A DNA stretch of 64,000 bases from Bolinopsis microptera. Taxonomy: Eukaryota > Ctenophora > Tentaculata > Lobata > Bolinopsidae. The notes under the pieces were generated by a model that saw nothing but the letters and a program-made list of their open reading frames with translations, was not told where the DNA came from and made no database searches. The translations under genes and the position numbers were made by a program. Below are positions 6,042 through 38,832 of the stretch, one piece after another. The DNA lies in contig NC_087074.1 in the NCBI RefSeq assembly GCF_026151205.1, positions 15,978,962-16,042,961 on the forward strand, written 5' to 3'. How positions within the stretch are numbered: position 1 is the stretch's first letter; each line of letters starts with the position of its first letter.

Positions 6042-6982
6042 TTATGGCTTATTTTACTCAGTGCCTTAAAATCAAATAATCTATCATGTTACCGCTGAGC
6101 AATATTTATGAAAAGCTCTATTAGAATTGGGTGATGACCAAATCATGTAAGAATTCTACACACATACAGAACAGTCGTTTTCATCTTTTGAAGATTAAGA
6201 TTATAAACCCTTTTATACCAAATGTATAAAACTGTAATTCTATATTTAAGTACTAAATGGTTTATAGCTTCACATATCCTTGCAGATGTATAAACCACAA
6301 GAATCTATTTCAATATTTGGTTATGTTGATGATTGTTTGTTCATTTCATTCAGAACAGGGTTGGGCTTTTTATAGATATTCAATGGCAGAATTTAGTTTT
6401 TGCTACATTTAAAATGGTTTTAAAAATAATTGGTTTCATTTTAATCATATCAGAATTAATATTTTCCCCAGAATTTTAATATTAAACATATATTTTATCA
6501 TTTATTATCAATCAGAGTTATATTAGAGTAGAGCTTTTAATTTTCTAGAGATTATATATATATTTTATCATTGGATTTACATTGTATTGAAGAATTGATC
6601 ACTGTATGATGTACCTTCAAAATAATGTAAGCTGCATTCAGTTGTACTAAACGTTTATTTGTAAAATGTTTTTGATTCTTACTTCTTCAAACATGAATGT
6701 TAAACCGTGAAATGTCAAATTTAAAAAAATTAATTAAAAACGTTGTAATTATACAATATATCTCTCGGTTATACTCTGATATTAATATGACGATTTTTTT
6801 GCATAAAACAATATGCCATCAACAATATTAGTGTATTCATAACCATCACTCTTTCAGGCTACCTACTGCCTGAGTAGTATGATTAACAAGAGTAATGTTA
6901 AGTGAAACACGTTTTAACATGACCTACTCTGTTCACCATTATTAAAGAGGCATTGTCCAATCATAAGGCCCGGTACTCTGTT
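6042..6982. other. 3' UTR and intergenic spacer
   Basis: Very AT-rich. No open frame or repeat family that I can identify. Probably the long 3' UTR of the tail-anchored gene followed by the promoter region of the F-box gene. Confidence 0.35.
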
Positions 6983-8520
6983 ATGTTATCTGATCAGGAA
7001 AACATTCTCCTCAACTCGACTGTATCTTCAATCTACTTTCTCAGTGACGACTGTCTGGATTATATTCTATCATTTATCCCGACTTTGGATCTTCTTCTTG
7101 TGTTGTCCACAGTCTGCAAGCGATGGCATTCTCTTTGTTTACAAAGGATAAGTCGATTGAAAATTTTGGATACCAGAAATTTGAGTAATGAAAAGAGTAA
7201 AGAAAAGAGTAATGAAAAGAGTAAAGAAACGATAATTTATGCCAAAAATTTTATTAGAATTGTTACTTTAAATATTGGTACTCTACAACATCTTCATATT
7301 GATAATAATGTATACTATAAGAGATTTCAACTAGATACACCTAAATCTAAGTCAAGGAGCATTCCTGAAACTTCTTCTCTGTCAGAATGTAACATTCTTC
7401 TGATAGTGTCCGAATATTGCCCCAATCTCAAAACTTTATCTCTGAATATTGATGAAAGACATCATCCGTTCAAGTTACAAATCCCAGAATCTCTACCAAA
7501 TAATTTGAATAGTTTGAGTCTTAATTGCGGACATCAACTTGAATCGAACGGTCTTCTCGCAAAGCTTCTTGAAAAGACGGAGAGCTTAAAAATGCTGGAC
7601 CTGGGGCCTCTGACCGGACAAGATGAATTTGCTGATATTTTCAGAGCAATAAGGGGACATCAGATACGATGTTTATCTTTTAAACAGTGCACAAATATGA
7701 ATCAGACTGACATGGCAGTTTTGTTAGAAACGTTTCACTCGTCTGTTGAGGATTTGAGCTTTACAAATCCCAATAATTTGGAAGACATGATCACAAACCA
7801 AGAAGTTTCATCTGACCCAGAAAAAAGTTCTATAAACTTAAAAGATTCAAGGCTTCACAAAAACCGCATTGTAATGCGATTAGGTTATCCAATGAATGTG
7901 GAAAATTCAATGTGCAGCTGTTAAACCTCATGCCAAATCTAGAAGTTTTAGACTTGTCATCAACTCGTAATCGATTCAACCTCATATCTACTGTTGTAAG
8001 AGGCTGCCCGTTACTGAAAAGGTTCCATTTCAACGAATGTGAGTTCACCGCAAAACAACTCACCCCTCTGCAGCAGCTGACACACTTGGAACATTTAGAC
8101 ATAAGTTACAGCTTCAATACATTCTACCAGAATTGGCTGAGTGTCGTTGACAAAGTATTGGTTAAAATACAAAGCTTAAAGTATATTGATCTACGAGGCA
8201 CTACCATCGATGATAAAGCTCTTCACCAATTGATAGAATCTCATCATAATTTGGAAACCATTGATGTTAGTGATGCTTTGACAGTGAGCGGTGTTCTATT
8301 AGAAATGCTCCACAGTTGTAACAGAGATAAAGTTATCACAATCATTGATAGGCCTGCACGTACTAGTGCAGGTGTTAATAGTTTAAGTGCTTTGGAGTGG
8401 TCAAGAAGAAGTGACCCAGATCAGATCGGATTACCTGAGTGGTTTAGACTGAACGGACAAGATGTTTTTAGTTGGAAAGCTGAAGAGTTTTGGGAAAAAT
8501 CTTTAAAATGGTGTCCATAA
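6983..8520 (+). CDS. F-box protein with leucine-rich repeats
   Basis: Single-exon gene. The likely start is the ATG at 6983 (MLSDQENILL). Residues about 19-58 form an F-box: FLSDDCLDYILSFIPTLDLL, then VCKRWHSLC. F-boxes bind Skp1 and bring substrates to an SCF ubiquitin ligase. Downstream are irregular leucine-rich repeats, for example CPNLKTLSLNI, NLEVLDLSST, HLEHLDIS and LKYIDLRGTTIDDKALHQLI, and these would bind the substrate. The frame closes at 7924, but LRR sequence resumes in the next frame with an overlap. One added A in the AAAA run near 7840 gives SSINLKRFKASQKPHCNAIR and joins the frames, for about 512 residues. Either an assembly indel or a young pseudogene would explain it. The clean repeats on both sides argue for the former. 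Confidence 0.8.
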
Positions 8521-9824: not shown

Positions 9825-11433
9825 ATGGCAGATTCTACCGAAAAAATCAAAGTACTAGTTTTAGGTAAACGACAAACTTACAATGATTACAAAGTTACAA
9901 TAATACAAAAGTTACAATAATTACATGTAATACAGACTGTACTAATGTATGTAACCGTTACATTGTGACGTTTGCATACTTTATGACTGCTACTCCCTCT
10001 TTTATGATGCATAATGTAATGTTTCTAGTAATAATACAAACGATCCATACATGGAAATATCATCACTAAAATTGTGGTACTTCACAAAAACTAACAATCT
10101 TTATTATTTATCAGGTGACTCAGGTGTAGGAGTGGTACTTCACAAAAACTAACAATCTTTATTATTTATCAGGTGACTCAGGTGTAGGAGTGGTACTTCA
10201 CAAAAACTAACAATCTTTATTATTTATCAGGTGACTCAGGCGTAGGAGTGGTACTTCACAAAAACTAACAATCTTTATTATTTATCAGGTGACTCAGGCG
10301 TAGGAGTGGTACTTCACAAAAACTAACAATCTTTATTATTTATCAGGTGACTCAGGTGTAGGAGTGGTACTTCACAAAAACTAACAATCTTTATTATTTA
10401 TCAGGTGACTCAGGTGTAGGAGTGGTACTTCACAAAAACTAATAATCTTTATTATTTATCAGGTGACTCAAGTGTAGGAGTGGTACTTCACAAAAACTAA
10501 CAATCTTTATTATTTATCAGGTGACTCAGGTGTAGGAGTGGTACTTCACAAAAACTAACAATCTTTATTATTTATCAGGTGACTCAGGTGTAGGAGTTGT
10601 ACTTCACAAAAACTAACAATCTTTATTATTTATCAGGTGACTCAGGTGTAGGAAAGACAACCTTAGTTAACTTAGTATCGAACACAAACAGTAAACCATC
10701 GTGGACTGTCGGCTGTAATGTGGAGGTCATCTACCATGAATCAAGAGGTTTGTAGTTTATTCGGTACTCTTTAAACTCAATTGACAGCGTTTTAATTGTG
10801 GCTTGATTTTGTCAACCCACGATATATCAAGTTGTTCAAAGTGGTCTTCATGATTCTAATACTTGATATTATAATCTACTTTTTGCACTCTCCTCAGAAT
10901 ACTCAGAGTTTATAGAAATGTGGGATGTGGGAGGGAGTCTGGTTCACGAGAACAGCCGCGCTCTCTTCCTCCGTGGTTGCATCTATCACGGTCTTATACT
11001 GGTACACGATCTGACAAACAGTAAATCTTACACTAACATGATCAGATGGGCGCTGGAGTTTGCGCAACATGGTGAGAAATCTAAGAGGCTGTCGAGAGAG
11101 GCGGAGATAGGCTTACTTCAAGGGATTGACATACCGAAACTAATAGTTGGGACTAAGCAGGACTTTTTGTGGAGTAGGAGCAGATATACTACAGATCGAA
11201 CAGGGCTTATTGGCGATCTTAATGCTCAATTAATTAGCGTTAATTGCCTGGATCACCTGCAGTATAAGAACTCTTATCAGCAACAACAGATCGCAAACTT
11301 CTTTGATCAAGTTATAAAACACAAGAAAAATGCTTCAAATAGGTTTAATAGACCTTTCCGGAGCACGACAGAGAGTCCAGCTCCCAGTACGAGTAGATAT
11401 TTCAGTTCGTTAGATTTAGGGTTTTCTTTTTAG
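9825..11433 (+). CDS. RABL3: Rab-like protein 3 (small GTPase)
   Basis: Three exons in phase: 9825-9864, 10637-10747 and 10898-11433, giving 228 residues (human RABL3 is 236). The N-terminus KIKVLVLGDSGVGKTTLV is the G1 P-loop. PSWTVGCNVEV follows, then the RABL3-type switch II EMWDVGG in place of the usual WDTAGQ. Next come HDLTNSKSY, the G4 box GTKQD, and a C-terminal FFDQVIKHKK helix. There is no prenylation cysteine at the end, as is usual for RABL3. RABL3 is a dimeric, non-prenylated Rab-like GTPase that has been linked to GPCR surface traffic and Ras/KRAS chaperoning in vertebrates. Its role here is inferred. The intron 1 acceptor plus the first 17 exon bases are duplicated ten times in tandem (10075-10653), and only the last copy runs into the real exon. 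Confidence 0.92.
10075..10653 (+). repeat. 58-bp tandem array copying a splice acceptor and P-loop codons
   Basis: Ten copies with an exact 58-bp period. The exon-like part GTGACTCAGGTGTAGGA starts at 10115, 10173, 10231, 10289, 10347, 10405, 10463, 10521, 10579 and 10637. Each is preceded by TTTATTATTTATCAG, a full 3' splice site. Copies differ by single bases, for example GCGTA at 10231 and 10289, AATAATC near 10440, and AAGTG at 10463. Only the tenth copy continues into the RABL3 exon (AAGACAACC). Confidence 0.97.
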
Positions 11434-12497
11434 CTGTTATTGTTATTGCATGGCACGTTTCCAATTTTTAGATGTTTATTCATATTATTTTGGTGGTAAA
11501 TTTTCAAATTGTTTATACCGGATGACTAAATTACTCTGTATTGATTATACCTCAAGGCATTGTTTCATTTTATGACTGTAATCTGCTTTGATTTAACGAC
11601 ACATTGTAAATTTGAATTTGATTTTGTCTAGATTGTTCACATCACATTCCAATTGAATACCAATGGATCTGTGTTTGTCAAGCTGTGTTTTACACACAAT
11701 TTCCTAGGAGCATGTCTGTTTAATCTTGAAGATGTTCTTCCGAAGGCGTGAGTAAATTTATTTTTAAATTTTCTATTTAATTACGGGATCGGAAAGCATA
11801 TCGAATTATAATGGGACAGATCGCGTAAACTTTACACCACTGTGCGCGCGCGCGGAATATTTTATCTTGTTAACACACAATTAAGTCAGCCTGTCTGTAG
11901 ACCCTTTTTCGTTCGTCAGATCATGCATATCATGTGGTATGTCGAGATCTGCTAGATCATCATGTTACGTGCCGCCACCCTTCTAATTCGATGCTAGTAG
12001 AACCGTATCTCATGTCAAATGATCAGATTACCCTTAAGATTTTACATTCCTGCTTTAGGGCAGTCAGTTCAGATCACTTTACGTTTCTTAATATTCACAG
12101 AAGATTCTCTAACGCTTGTCGCTTGACGTTGTTATTATATTACCCACTATCTGTTCAACACACGATTTTTCAAAAACTGATAATATAGCAGTGCAATGGG
12201 GTATGTAACATGACCCACGAGTAGTCGCCAAAGAATTACCTATCGGTAATTTCTTATATAATATATCTTATTTTTTACAACCCACACGAATCAATTAGAG
12301 ACAATTTTCACCAACTTTAAAGTTAAGATTGCGGCAATAATTAAATATTAGCACATAGCCCAATAATCAGTAGCGTAATTTACATAAAAAGGAAATGCTG
12401 CGAGGGACGCGGTCTGTAATCTGTATTTAATACTATCTGATATTGTTAAAAACGAAATTTGCTGATTATGAATGAAACATTGGTCGTAAACAAAGTG
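11434..12497. other. Intergenic
   Basis: Probable RABL3 3' UTR, then a convergent spacer before the 3' end of the GPCR gene. A short CG-rich run (GTGCGCGCGCGCGG) lies near 11842. I see no further gene. Confidence 0.3.
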
Positions 12498-14108
12498 TCA
12501 TACAAAAGTTGTTTGGAACGGATATTGGTACCCAGGGCTCACCACACCCCTCAGAAGCTCATCGCTTGTCGTAAAGTTTGTGTTTGGAATTTCGTCCTCT
12601 TCTGTATAGGACGGATTGGCCGTCACCATGGCATGTGCGTTTCTCTCCTCCAAGTTGGCGGTCGACTTCTTCCGCGATGCCCGTTTTCGTGGTGAAATAT
12701 TTTCTGGTAAACTGCAATCTGGTGTCAGGATATCCGTGTAGTTTGACTGCATCTCAGGTGATCTTGTTTGTAGTGACTGAGTCGTTCTCTCCGCAGGTTT
12801 GTTATCTGCTGATTGTCTCCTTGCAGAAGGTGTCACTTGGGGTGATGTATCGTGTAATCTACTCCGATGTGACTGGCATTGTCGTAATCTTCTGTTGGGT
12901 AGTCGGTTCCGCAGAGGATCAGTGGTGTCATGATGGTTTCCATTTGAATTCCTTTGAACAGCTCTGTTGTCAATACTTGTTGAGTATTGTAATCTTGAGG
13001 GGGAGTATTGTAATTTTGTTGGAGAGGGAGACGCTATTGTATTGACTGTCCCTACCTGGTCCATTCTTTTTCTTTTATGAGTGTATCTCATCATAAAAGC
13101 CATGCTGTTTTCTAATGAACGCCTGAAATATACATCTCGTCTACATCTGATGATATCAATAACATGCTGCCTGAAAGCGCGGGTCCTCCACACATAAACA
13201 CATGGGTTCAGAGCTGAGTTAACTCCCACTGATAGGACAGTGATAGCAGCATGTCCGTAGGGACTCAGCCAGTCCAAATTTATATGAGTCAAACCAGCAG
13301 TTGTTTGCAGAAATATCACAAACTGAACCAGGCAGATAGGAAGGTTGAAAAAGACATAGAGAAGTGTGAAACAAACTATGGTTACGCTGACGGATCTGTT
13401 TGTTTGGGACATTTGAGATCTAGGTTGGTTCAGAACACATATTGTTATTACGCTCGATAATATTATCGGCAGGATAAGGATGTTCATCTCAAAAGCAAAG
13501 ATGATTGAATAAGTTTTGTAGGCAGTCGGGTACGAGGAGAGTATGTAATCATTTTCCCAGGTGCAGATGCCATGTCCCGCATAATAATAGTATCTATGCC
13601 CCACCCAAAAAGGAATAGTGGCCTGGCACATGATCACTAACACATACCCCACCACAATTCCAATCACTAACTTCTTATTGAGAAACAGTCTGGCTAGAGG
13701 GAAAGTGATACAGATACACCTGGTAATACTAACAACAGCTACCAGAAACACAGTCAGGATGACGCAGCAATACCAGAGGAAACCCCAGAGATTACAGAAC
13801 CAAGGTACCATTTCCAAGAGATACATGTACCTGTGGTAGCCGATAAAGGGAAGGGATATAGGCAGCATCAGGACGCTCACCACCAGATCAGCAGAGGTTA
13901 TGAAAATGTAAATGATAGTGGCCAGGTCCTTCTTCTTGTTCATGAAGAAGTGAAGAGCAAACGAGTTTCCAGTCGTTCCGATAAGGAAGCATGTAAGGTA
14001 AGCGGTAAAGTTTAGTATCTCGATGTCTGGTACAAGTCCAGGTATTGTCCAGGGTTGAGTGGTGGCGGGCTGTGTAGTGGCGAGTTGTGTATCTGTTACA
14101 TTCGACAT
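12498..14108 (-). CDS. Class A G-protein-coupled receptor (orphan)
   Basis: Intronless, 536 residues. N-glycosylation sites sit at N3 (NVT) and N33 (NFT). Seven hydrophobic helices run from about residue 34 to 309. TM1 has TGNS, TM2 has SADLVVS with the conserved Asp at about 74, and C105 (start of TM3) can pair with C182 in extracellular loop 2. The E/DRY box is SITRC, which keeps the Arg but lacks the acidic residue. TM6 has FFNLPIC instead of CWxP, and TM7 has NPCVY (NPxxY). Together these place it in the rhodopsin class. The C-tail is long (about 225 residues), hydrophilic and rich in Ser, Asn and Arg, consistent with kinase and arrestin sites. The ligand is unknown: the sequence does not match an amine, opsin or peptide subfamily clearly. 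Lineage-specific, intronless receptor expansions are common in invertebrates. Confidence 0.88.
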   Translation of the reverse strand: MSNVTDTQLATTQPATTQPWTIPGLVPDIEILNFTAYLTCFLIGTTGNSFALHFFMNKKKDLATIIYIFITSADLVVSVLMLPISLPFIGYHRYMYLLEMVPWFCNLWGFLWYCCVILTVFLVAVVSITRCICITFPLARLFLNKKLVIGIVVGYVLVIMCQATIPFWVGHRYYYYAGHGICTWENDYILSSYPTAYKTYSIIFAFEMNILILPIILSSVITICVLNQPRSQMSQTNRSVSVTIVCFTLLYVFFNLPICLVQFVIFLQTTAGLTHINLDWLSPYGHAAITVLSVGVNSALNPCVYVWRTRAFRQHVIDIIRCRRDVYFRRSLENSMAFMMRYTHKRKRMDQVGTVNTIASPSPTKLQYSPSRLQYSTSIDNRAVQRNSNGNHHDTTDPLRNRLPNRRLRQCQSHRSRLHDTSPQVTPSARRQSADNKPAERTTQSLQTRSPEMQSNYTDILTPDCSLPENISPRKRASRKKSTANLEERNAHAMVTANPSYTEEDEIPNTNFTTSDELLRGVVSPGYQYPFQTTFV

Positions 14109-14830
14109 TCTTCTGATGAAATTTTATTGGTTATAAATGAATCTAGTTTAATGAAGCAATGTAGCAGAAGATTTTGAAACAATACATACACGGTCAAATT
14201 ATAACAATGTTGAAATTCAACATTTTGTTATTATTGATTACCGACTTTTTAAAATCGCATATTGTTGATGTTTCCTCTGAACATACTGAACGCCTAATTT
14301 TTTTCAGAGACGGTAGATTATCAAATGTTGCATATATGATCTGAAAACATGGGGCAAAACGGATTAGAAATGACGAAGTTATCAAGCATTTTCTGTATCT
14401 CGTTAACAATATTGACTGGGTGATTATGTGACACCGTGACACGACACCTTAATTGGGCACCCTTAACAATTCCCATAATGTTTAACGGGGTAGTTAACGG
14501 GGGCACCTTATCACGTGATTAGGTAAACCAATCACCTAATCCCACGTAATGAATAAACTCGTTATGCTTCATATCTCGGTCATCTGAGAAGCTACAGTTC
14601 TAATTCTTTCAGGACAAACGTAATTCGAATGGCCAAACACAATTCAATAACATTTAGCTTGATCCGACTATCCAAACTATCAAATAAATGTGAAAATGAA
14701 CCTCCATTTGAAAAAAATGAACGCGAATATTTTTCGAGTTGACAAATTCCTCGAACCAGTGGTGGTACTAAGTCATACCAGAAAGAAGTATTTAAATTGG
14801 GCACTCAGTGACTGAGCTATAAAGGCCAAC
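14109..14830. other. Intergenic with short inverted repeats
   Basis: Upstream region of the GPCR. CACGTGATTAGGT and ACCTAATCCCACGT (14514-14547) form a hairpin. GGGCACCCTTAAC and related GGGGGCACC segments recur near 14455-14510. No gene is recognised. Confidence 0.35.
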
Positions 14831-36012: not shown

Positions 36013-38832
36013 TGGACACGTTCATTTGAGTTTGAGGATATTGGTAAACAAAAATGATAGCGTTTTCGACGATAGTGGCTTAATTTTGACATATACTAAC
36101 CTAGCACGTTCAGAAGTTCTGAACATTAGCCACGTAACCCATACTCCCATATGCACTGCTCAGAAAGAAAATCTATTGTTGTTAGGCACTATAATGGTTC
36201 AAATGTCACATTTTGTGTGACTTAGTTAACTGCAGTTGTCTAATTATCATTCCTTGGTCTGAAATATAGTAGATTAGGTCAATCTAACAATTATGATACA
36301 ACATTGGTTAAAGGGCACGGATCGAACGGTTACAAGGCAATATTTGGGTAACTTTGTCACACTCAGAATACCATACCTCTATTCTACTGTGAGGTGTCCT
36401 CAAAAACCTTTTAACTCATTATTTGATGGTTGATCTACCAATCATAGCCCTAAAATATTTTGTTCCGAATAGGCACTTGGTTATTGGGAAATGAGGGTTA
36501 ATTCTGTCACAATATATGGAATTTTAAATTTTGGGCGAATTATTTATATCTGATTTTGGTTTGAAAGGCGGGAAAACTTTATATGATGACAATGTAGTTG
36601 ATGCAAGTTAAGATCAGTTGATGTTTACATTGTCACAAAAAATGATACGAAATCGTAAATATGTTAAAAACAATGATTATAGAATGAAATAGTCTCTTAT
36701 AATAACTCTTATAATAACTGATGTGACAAAGTAAACATGTCTTGCCCCTATTTTGAAGATCTATATATTCTATAACTCTATTAGAATTCAACATTCTTCC
36801 AGAAAAAAATCGGTAGAATATTGTCCAGAACATCAGAGCTCAAGTTCAACAATTTTAGATTAATTTGTCAAAGACACTGAAAATGTAACAAAATTAACTT
36901 TCCCTGCCCCAACAATATCAAGATAGTGTGTTAAAATTGACATATGATGCTTAATCGCCTATATCAATCGATCCAAAGTACAAAAAAAGATCTGTTAATC
37001 TGATGACGATTACCTAACTCTAATAATAACTGATGTGACAAAGTAAACATTTCTTGCCCCTATTTTGAAGATCTATAACTCTATTAGAATTCAGCATTCT
37101 TTCAGAAACGATTGGTAGAATATTGTCTAGAACATCAGAGCTCAAGTTTAACAATTTTAGATTAATTTGTCAAAGACACTGAAAATGTAACAAAATTAAC
37201 TTTCCCTGCCCCAACAATATCAAGATAGTGTGTTAAAATTGACATATGATGCTTAATTGCCTATATCAATCGATCCAAACTACAAAAAAAAGATCTGTTA
37301 ATCTGATGACGATTACCTAACTCTTATAATAACTGATGTGACAAAGTAAACATGTCTTGCCTCTATTTTGACCTACCTATGTGACCTATTTTGAAGATCT
37401 ATAACTCTATTAGAATTCAACATTCTTTCAGAAACGATTGGTAGAATATTGTCCAGAACATCAGAGCTCAAGTTTAACAATTTTAGATTAATTTGTCAAA
37501 GACGCTGAAAATGTGACAAAATCAACTTTCCCTGCCCCAACAATATCAAGATAGTGTGTTAAAATTGACATATGATGCTTTATTGCCTATATCAATCGAT
37601 CCAAACTACAAAAAAAAGATCTGTTAATCTGATGACGATTACCTAACTCTTATAATAACTGATGTGACAAAGTAAACATGTCTTGCCTCTATTTTGAAGA
37701 TCTATAACTCTATTAGAATTCAACATTCTTTCAGAAACGATTGGCAGAATATTGTCCAGAACATCAGAGCTCAAGTTTAACAATTTTAGATTAATTTGTC
37801 AAAGACGCTGAAAATGTGACAAAATCAACTTTCCCTGCCCCAACAATATCAAGATAGTGTGTTAAAATTGGCATAGGATGCTTTATTGCCTATATTAATC
37901 GATCCAAACTACGAAAAAGATCTGTTAATCTGATGACGATTACCTAACTCTTATAATAATTACTGATGTGACAAAGTAAACATGTCTTGCCCCTATTTTG
38001 AAGAGCTATACCTCTATTAGTATACTACGTAACTTTATCATCAATGAACTAGTTATTTTGCCAGCAAGGAGCTAACAGAGTTATAATATTTTTTTTGTGA
38101 CGAAATAACCCTATTTTTGACCATGTTGCGGTAGTTTAATTGTGACACTGTTAACATATTACCACCCGATAATGATTTATGTGACTGGTGCGTGGTACTA
38201 GCAGTGTTGTTTGAATCATAATACATAATATAAGGGGTTTAAGCTGGTATATCATTATTTGTTCAATTTCACACATGTTCATATATCATCAAGATTATGT
38301 GACAAAGTAAACTTGTTTGTGCCTTCTGTGTTTTAATTCCTTACGACTATATGATATAATAACAATTCCTAGCACTTCCAGGCCATCAAATAAACCTACA
38401 CTACTCAGCATTGCTTATCAGGGTGCCCTAAACATTCTTCACATGTTTTCTTAAATGTGTGACAGAGTAAACATGAGTGCACCATCTAACGAAAAAAAGT
38501 CGTCAAATATGTACGTAATGGTCATACGTACCCATCCAATCAACTGGACACTCAAAAATCTGGTCAAAAATGGCAGCAAGGGGTCCATATTTACTCCGTC
38601 ACATGTTTATAGTGTGACAATGTAACCATTTCCGTGCCGGCCGTATTTAAGCGATATCTTATCACCTGATTAAGATATCGTTAAGTGACAAAGTTAGCCT
38701 AGAGGATGAGACGATTATCCTAACCATCAAGGGTTTGTGTAATTTCATAGTGTGACAAAGTCAACTACACTGTGCCTTTTAATAGGGTCACTTATATTTA
38801 CCAATATCCTCAAACTCAAATGAACGTGTCCA
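36013..38832. mobile_element. 2.8-kb TIR element built from a repeating 15-bp box
   Basis: Perfect 36-bp inverted ends (36013-36048 and 38797-38832) begin TGGACACGTTCATTTGAGTT and end GGTAAA, with TA on each side. Inside, the box TGTGACAAAGTAAAC recurs. Forward copies are at 36216, 36722, 37034, 37337, 37663, 37967, 38141, 38298, 38458, 38613, 38694 and 38751. Reverse copies are at 36348, 36497, 36623 and 38590. From 36640 to 38000 four to five copies of a 305-330-bp unit are arranged in tandem. Further right, box spacing is near 155 bp. No transposase frame exists, so it is non-autonomous. A TA duplication suggests Tc1/mariner-type mobilisation, which is inference. Confidence 0.9.

Follow-up and report, generated by a model that had tools for sequence, protein, structure and literature searches.

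How the splicing machinery decides between equal sites that lie next to one another is a long-standing question, approached chiefly with artificially duplicated sites. The first intron of the gene for Rab-like protein 3 (RABL3) in the ctenophore Bolinopsis microptera raises it in natural form, as the 3' end of this intron holds ten tandem copies of one splice acceptor together with the start of the following exon. Which copy is used, what becomes of splicing events that enter the others, and whether the arrangement is peculiar to this gene were considered here for a window of 64,000 nt on contig C3, the whole stretch of DNA that was analysed, and for the remainder of the same genome assembly. 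The ten near-equal acceptors of RABL3, together with ten donors and seven acceptors in a CDK1-like gene, form a natural series within one genome in which each array has a single productive copy by reading frame, and such arrays constitute natural tests of splicing choice among near-identical sites.

Anatomy and coding outcome of the RABL3 array

Tandem Repeats Finder (TRF), when applied to the window, identified an array with a period of 58 bp, 10.0 copies and 98% matches (score 1125) across the end of RABL3 intron 1 (Table 1). Reading out the units singly gave the same picture, in agreement with an earlier note on this DNA that had described a tenfold amplification of a 58 bp unit carrying the full 3' splice site and the P-loop codons of RABL3; the start given there, 10075, is one base from the 10074 found by TRF and denotes the same array. 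In each unit 41 nt are intronic and 17 nt exonic, such that the exon-intron boundary lies inside the repeat in all ten. A branch point-like CTAAC, replaced by CTAAT in copy 7, is followed by a T-rich tract, by CAG and by the 17 nt that open RABL3 exon 2. The AG and GT signals adjoin one another in every unit, CAG/GT (with the slash marking the splice junction) being present in ten of ten.

The copies vary only at unit positions 3, 22, 50 and 52. Unit positions 23-49, which include the T-rich tract, CAG and GTGACTCA, are invariant in all ten units, and the description of the decoys as identical to the true site therefore holds for the acceptor stretch but not for the units as a whole: a silent T>C is present in copies 3 and 4, copy 7 has CTAAT in place of CTAAC and is translated as GDSSVG, and copy 10, at the edge of the array, has a private change at unit position 3. 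Pairs of units differ at a mean of 0.96 of 58 positions (1.65%), with 16 of the 45 pairs identical, and it is on account of this low divergence that the array appears young. The 19-mer TTTATTATTTATCAGGTGA occurs ten times genome-wide, on every occasion inside this array, and no microhomology was found at the array ends (0 and 0 nt).

Joining exons 1, 2 and 3 produces an open reading frame of 228 aa, the best PDB match of which is Rab-like protein 3 (6vih, E 3.9e-31), supporting the identity previously assigned to the gene. By contrast with acceptor 10, which alone among the ten keeps the RABL3 frame open, acceptors 1-9 when joined to exon 1 encode GDSGVG (GDSSVG in copy 7), then VVLHKN and a stop in nine of nine cases, and all nine stops fall upstream of a later intron. 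The further claims of the earlier note, that splicing into any of the first nine copies leads to a premature stop and that only the tenth is productive, are thus borne out at the level of the reading frame. A search of the genome, represented by one haplotype, with positions 10660-11434 returned one match, and hence neither a second allele nor a RABL3 paralogue lacking the array was found; with an upstream query, matches elsewhere in the genome were confined to query positions 179-235, a different short repeat.

Several other features were observed in the surroundings of the array. A second short repeat, of the TTACAATAA type, lies just past the exon 1 donor (9872-9925), and similar repeats are present on contigs C4, C9 and C10. 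Reading frames for F-box and leucine-rich-repeat sequences are located upstream of RABL3 (6923-8520) and a rhodopsin-type receptor is encoded downstream, on the minus strand (12501-14123). A 303 bp unit is repeated in 4.2 copies with 91% matches (TRF) at 36703-38020, and no Rfam family reached its gathering score in the window.

Table 1. Positions of the RABL3 features in the window and of other arrays in the genome (C1 and C10, contigs of the same assembly)
Feature	Position	Strand	Basis or remarks
RABL3 exon 1 (MADSTEKIKVLVLG, phase 1 end, TTAG/GTAAAC)	9825..9864	+	ORF join, PDB match; donor 5.5 bits
RABL3 intron 1, 772 nt	9865..10636	+	Final 563 nt are nine full units and the intronic part of the tenth
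10 x 58 bp array over intron 1 3' splice site and 17 nt of exon 2	10074..10653	+	TRF, units read out singly
Branch point-like CTAAC, copy 1	10091..10095	+	Last A 20 nt before CAG end; recurs every 58 bp, CTAAT in copy 7
Decoy acceptor 1 (CAG)	10112..10114	+	Decoys 2-9 at 58 bp steps, last 10576-10578
GTGACT right after CAG, exon 2 start and donor-like	10115..10120	+	Present in all ten units
Productive acceptor, copy 10	10634..10636	+	Sole one of ten with open frame
RABL3 exon 2 (GDSGVGKTTLV...)	10637..10747	+	ORF join, PDB match
RABL3 exon 3 with stop	10898..11433	+	ORF join
CDK1-like gene, two arrays (L068-L075)	C1:213897-215800		Match E 2.3e-43
CDK1 exon 1 donor array, 10 x 43 bp	C1:213964-214394
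CDK1 exon 3 acceptor array, 6.5 x 109 bp	C1:215075-215782		7 acceptors
Dynein heavy chain exon end array (L076)	C1:849931-850118		8 donors; AAA_7, E 9e-11, over the join of this and the following exon
3 x 50 bp array at dynein-type exon end (L077)	C1:858818-858970		AAA_8, E 4e-5, under family cut-off
43 bp array, about 100 copies	C1:859581-863970		Unit CCCCTCAG/GGACCTGTTAGTGCAG/GTGATAA, like acceptor, 16 nt exon and donor
WD40-like exon donor array (L085)			9 donors; Pfam WD40 of MABP1/WDR62 type, E 2e-5, under curated cut-offs
32 bp unit, about 57 copies (L089/L090)	C10:1535207-1537051		Array ends read; begins at open-frame end, ...AGAACTGAAACTACAG/GTAAGT

Splice-site strength and the fate of the decoys

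The sites of the array were compared with introns from 26 Ras-family loci of the same genome, fitted with a custom spliced aligner. Of 66 fitted introns 54 were kept, including those of the alike loci L030 and L031, both of which were retained; the 12 dropped consisted of nine from near-duplicate or poor loci (L042, L043, L052 and L059) and three under 100 nt (45, 51 and 75 nt), judged to be artefacts. On score tables that were built from the same introns they rank, sampled from one gene family, the array acceptors reach 10.0 bits, or 10.2 bits for copy 7, which places them at the 81st percentile of the 54 acceptors, and the exon 1 donor is weak, at the 26th percentile of 54 donors. A YTRAY motif lies 10-50 nt before the intron end in 33 of the 54 reference introns. 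The array is also unusually unstructured (z +5.2; 100 of 100 shuffled sequences fold at least as well), such that folding of the RNA would not conceal the decoys. Masking of the decoys by RNA structure is ruled out, as the array folds worse than its shuffles.

The array is probably a young minisatellite lying over an exon boundary, which is tolerated as the copy next to the exon, judged by reading frame to be the one in use, continues to serve as the acceptor. A 58 bp stretch consisting of the branch point, the T-rich tract, AG and 17 nt of exon 2 would have been duplicated in tandem and then expanded, presumably by unequal exchange or slippage. Copy 10, adjoining the remainder of exon 2, would have remained the working acceptor and the nine others would have become intronic decoys. 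Through exon definition, the exon-proximal copy would be expected to win, as no other copy runs straight on into exon 2 and the donor beyond it, and the array would consequently be nearly neutral. Any splicing that leaked into the decoys would yield transcripts with premature stops or be spliced again, the latter being permitted by the presence of AG/GT in the same register in every unit. A productive copy nearest the exon is what neutral expansion on the intron side would predict, and exon definition would enforce it. The practically equal scores of the acceptors weigh against the use of copy 10, since a rule of first AG or of proximity would predict that decoys are chosen.

An unlikely alternative is that the decoys are used often and that the donor remade by joining exon 1 to one of them, TAG/GTGACT, goes on to splice to a copy further downstream through recursive splicing, the array thereby erasing itself from the transcript. 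In a variant of this reading, units would be removed from each other before exon 1 is joined, all routes that end at copy 10 giving one mRNA. That the same mRNA results from every such route follows from the anatomy of the array: with CAG/GTGACT in all ten units, every one reads as both an acceptor and a donor, so that further splicing could undo the use of a decoy and leave no mark on the mRNA. As a donor in place within the unit, CAG/GTGACT scores 9.0 bits, and the donor remade on joining exon 1 scores 7.8 bits (57th percentile of 54 donors, on the same tables) against the original 5.5 bits, meaning that a decoy splice would create a donor outscoring the one just used; an equal or stronger donor is remade by just 3 of the 54 reference introns. 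However, GT directly after an acceptor is common in this genome, being found in 18 of the 54 reference introns, and in RABL3 it follows from the P-loop codons. The unit of 58 nt is also shorter than the smallest kept reference intron, of 107 nt (three shorter fits having been dropped), whereas two units, at 116 nt, and longer multiples are within range; decoys 1-8, for which introns of 116 nt or more are available, could therefore be rescued, but decoy 9, requiring a 58 nt intron, not easily. Furthermore, in the available portion of a study of human cells, the exon junction complex is reported to repress remade donors (PMC6224609). Self-erasure of decoy splices is accordingly best described as possible.

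The earlier note's proposals, that the nine decoys reduce expression of RABL3 by way of nonsense-mediated decay or act as a switch tunable by copy number, are improbable. The location of every decoy stop, the practically like scores of the ten acceptors and the openness of the array to the splicing machinery, as far as folding is concerned, would all be consistent with such an effect. Nevertheless, CDK1 carries two arrays of this kind, and its open frame survives beside both donor and acceptor decoys. CDK1 is essential in animals. Normal splicing has also been reported for the same architecture in amphioxus, in those parts of the accounts that were available (PMC3087553, PMC3902484). Expansion of a single or double unit during assembly is very improbable: near-identical tandem copies are a classic site for collapse or expansion in assemblies, but the copies carry distinct changes at four unit positions, the array, at 580 bp, is short relative to a long read, and similar arrays with different units are present elsewhere in the assembly.

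Arrays at other exon ends in the genome

The RABL3 array is one of a recurring class, with further arrays lying across exon ends in the same genome (Table 1). In the CDK1-like gene, the frame stays open only with the first of the ten donors and the last of the seven acceptors, as all 15 decoys (nine donors and six acceptors) lead to a stop; by reading frame, the productive copy in RABL3 and CDK1 is thus the last for acceptors and the first for donors. More generally, the frame-keeping copy is the exon-proximal one in RABL3, in both CDK1 arrays, across all eight donors of the dynein heavy chain array (L076) and across the first four of the nine donors of the WD40-like array (L085). The smaller dynein-type array (L077) is 9 kb beyond L076 on the same strand, and the two exons probably belong to the same dynein gene. 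No recognised coding sequence was found at the array of about 100 copies on C1, the unit of which resembles an acceptor, a short exon and a donor.

Genome-wide searches were made for triplicated splice-site words. Three copies of CAGGTRA at gaps of 30-60 nt were found at 6488 + 7550 places, the reversed word giving 422 + 561, and triple CAGGTAAGT at the same gaps at 133 + 291 places against 0 + 0. These figures are inflated by long arrays, inside which places overlap heavily, so they do not count arrays, and the reversed-word control is not adjusted for single-word frequency. Among the matches listed, those to triple CAGGTRA represent at least three separate arrays, all on C1 (CDK1 exon 1, L076 dynein and the 43 bp array of about 100 copies), and those to triple CAGGTAAGT at least eight. 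Four of these eight have an open frame that ends at the first donor (L083, L084, L085 and L089), with L085 alone having a Pfam match, under the curated cut-offs; no coding exon was found at the other four of the eight among the matches listed (L082, L086, L087/L088 and L091/L092). The acceptor-like triple TTTTCAG was found at 597 + 473 places against 102 + 93 for its reversed word, corresponding to at least 14 separate arrays among the matches listed.

Splice-site arrays are nevertheless a minority, since a single one of the 132 boundaries of all 66 fitted introns, in a poor fit, lies in an array with a period of at least 6. Among array rows of period 15 or more, CAGGTR is present in 1 of 35 in the window and 0 of 70 in the sampled loci, and three arbitrary 10 kb regions (L079-L081) contain one such row with AGGT in the unit, on the minus strand. 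A tight cluster of Ras/Rho-like GTPases, many of which have their entire domain within a single open frame, was also observed on C1 (12427279-12459122), with 22 bp arrays of up to 45 copies at some of the sampled loci.

It is doubtful whether these arrays, CDK1 included, make up a genome-wide class of splice-site minisatellites in which units with AG/GT in register erase themselves by recursive or nested splicing and are thereby harmless. Were this the case, exon boundaries would be able to stutter freely and to seed new introns.

Relation to boundary-spanning repeats and intron gain

The closest counterparts of the RABL3 array are the 'mirages' of amphioxus, minisatellite-like tandem repeats over an intron-exon boundary that have been described in Adh3, the globins BflGb6 and BflGb9, troponin C and PGBD5 (PMC3087553, PMC3902484). 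According to the available parts of these reports, regular splicing of the Adh3 and globin genes is seemingly undisturbed, although the repeated sites could act as cryptic sites, and mirage length differs between haplotypes (PMC3087553); likewise, no aberrant mRNAs accompany the Adh and troponin C mirages, and the same is suggested for PGBD5 (PMC3902484). RABL3 resembles them in having units that span the boundary, AG/GT in the units and one authentic edge copy, as judged by reading frame. As in amphioxus, the arrays of B. microptera occur at acceptors or donors, many units contain AG/GT and edge copies are less homogenised, the private change in RABL3 copy 10 paralleling the exclusion of edge copies from homogenisation in the globin mirages (PMC3087553). 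Unlike the mirages, as far as they are described in the available text, the present arrays belong to a ctenophore, the ten 58 bp units of RABL3 are 98% alike and each forms a module from branch point to exon, and several unrelated genes in one genome are affected, CDK1 carrying a pair of arrays and a dynein gene, probably a single one, a further pair. Among the matches listed in the open-licence literature, no description of splice-site arrays in ctenophores was found, and within that scope the arrays would extend mirages beyond amphioxus.

A second likeness is to recursive splice sites (PMC6224609), in which, in the available portion of the study, an acceptor leads straight into a donor-like GT in the same register and joining the upstream exon remakes a donor. 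The RABL3 sites differ in being ten in tandem, 58 bp apart, with the last opening a real exon, and in being known from sequence alone. Human internal tandem repeats that alter gene structure (PMC2812944) likewise involve minisatellite expansion inside genes, but those, as outlined in the accessible text, are primate segmental duplications.

Splice-site arrays also bear on the gain of introns from tandem repeats. In the accounts available of intron gain by tandem AGGT duplication, in a potato RdRp gene (PMC4974935) and in Cryptococcus (PMC2395259), the expansion carries splice signals and a unit might be removable as an intron, as in RABL3. Unlike in those cases, the RABL3 intron predates its array, its P-loop position being common to another Rab-type gene: at locus L048, which has no array there, a phase 1 intron lies at the same place in the P-loop, ruling out the birth of intron 1 from the array itself.
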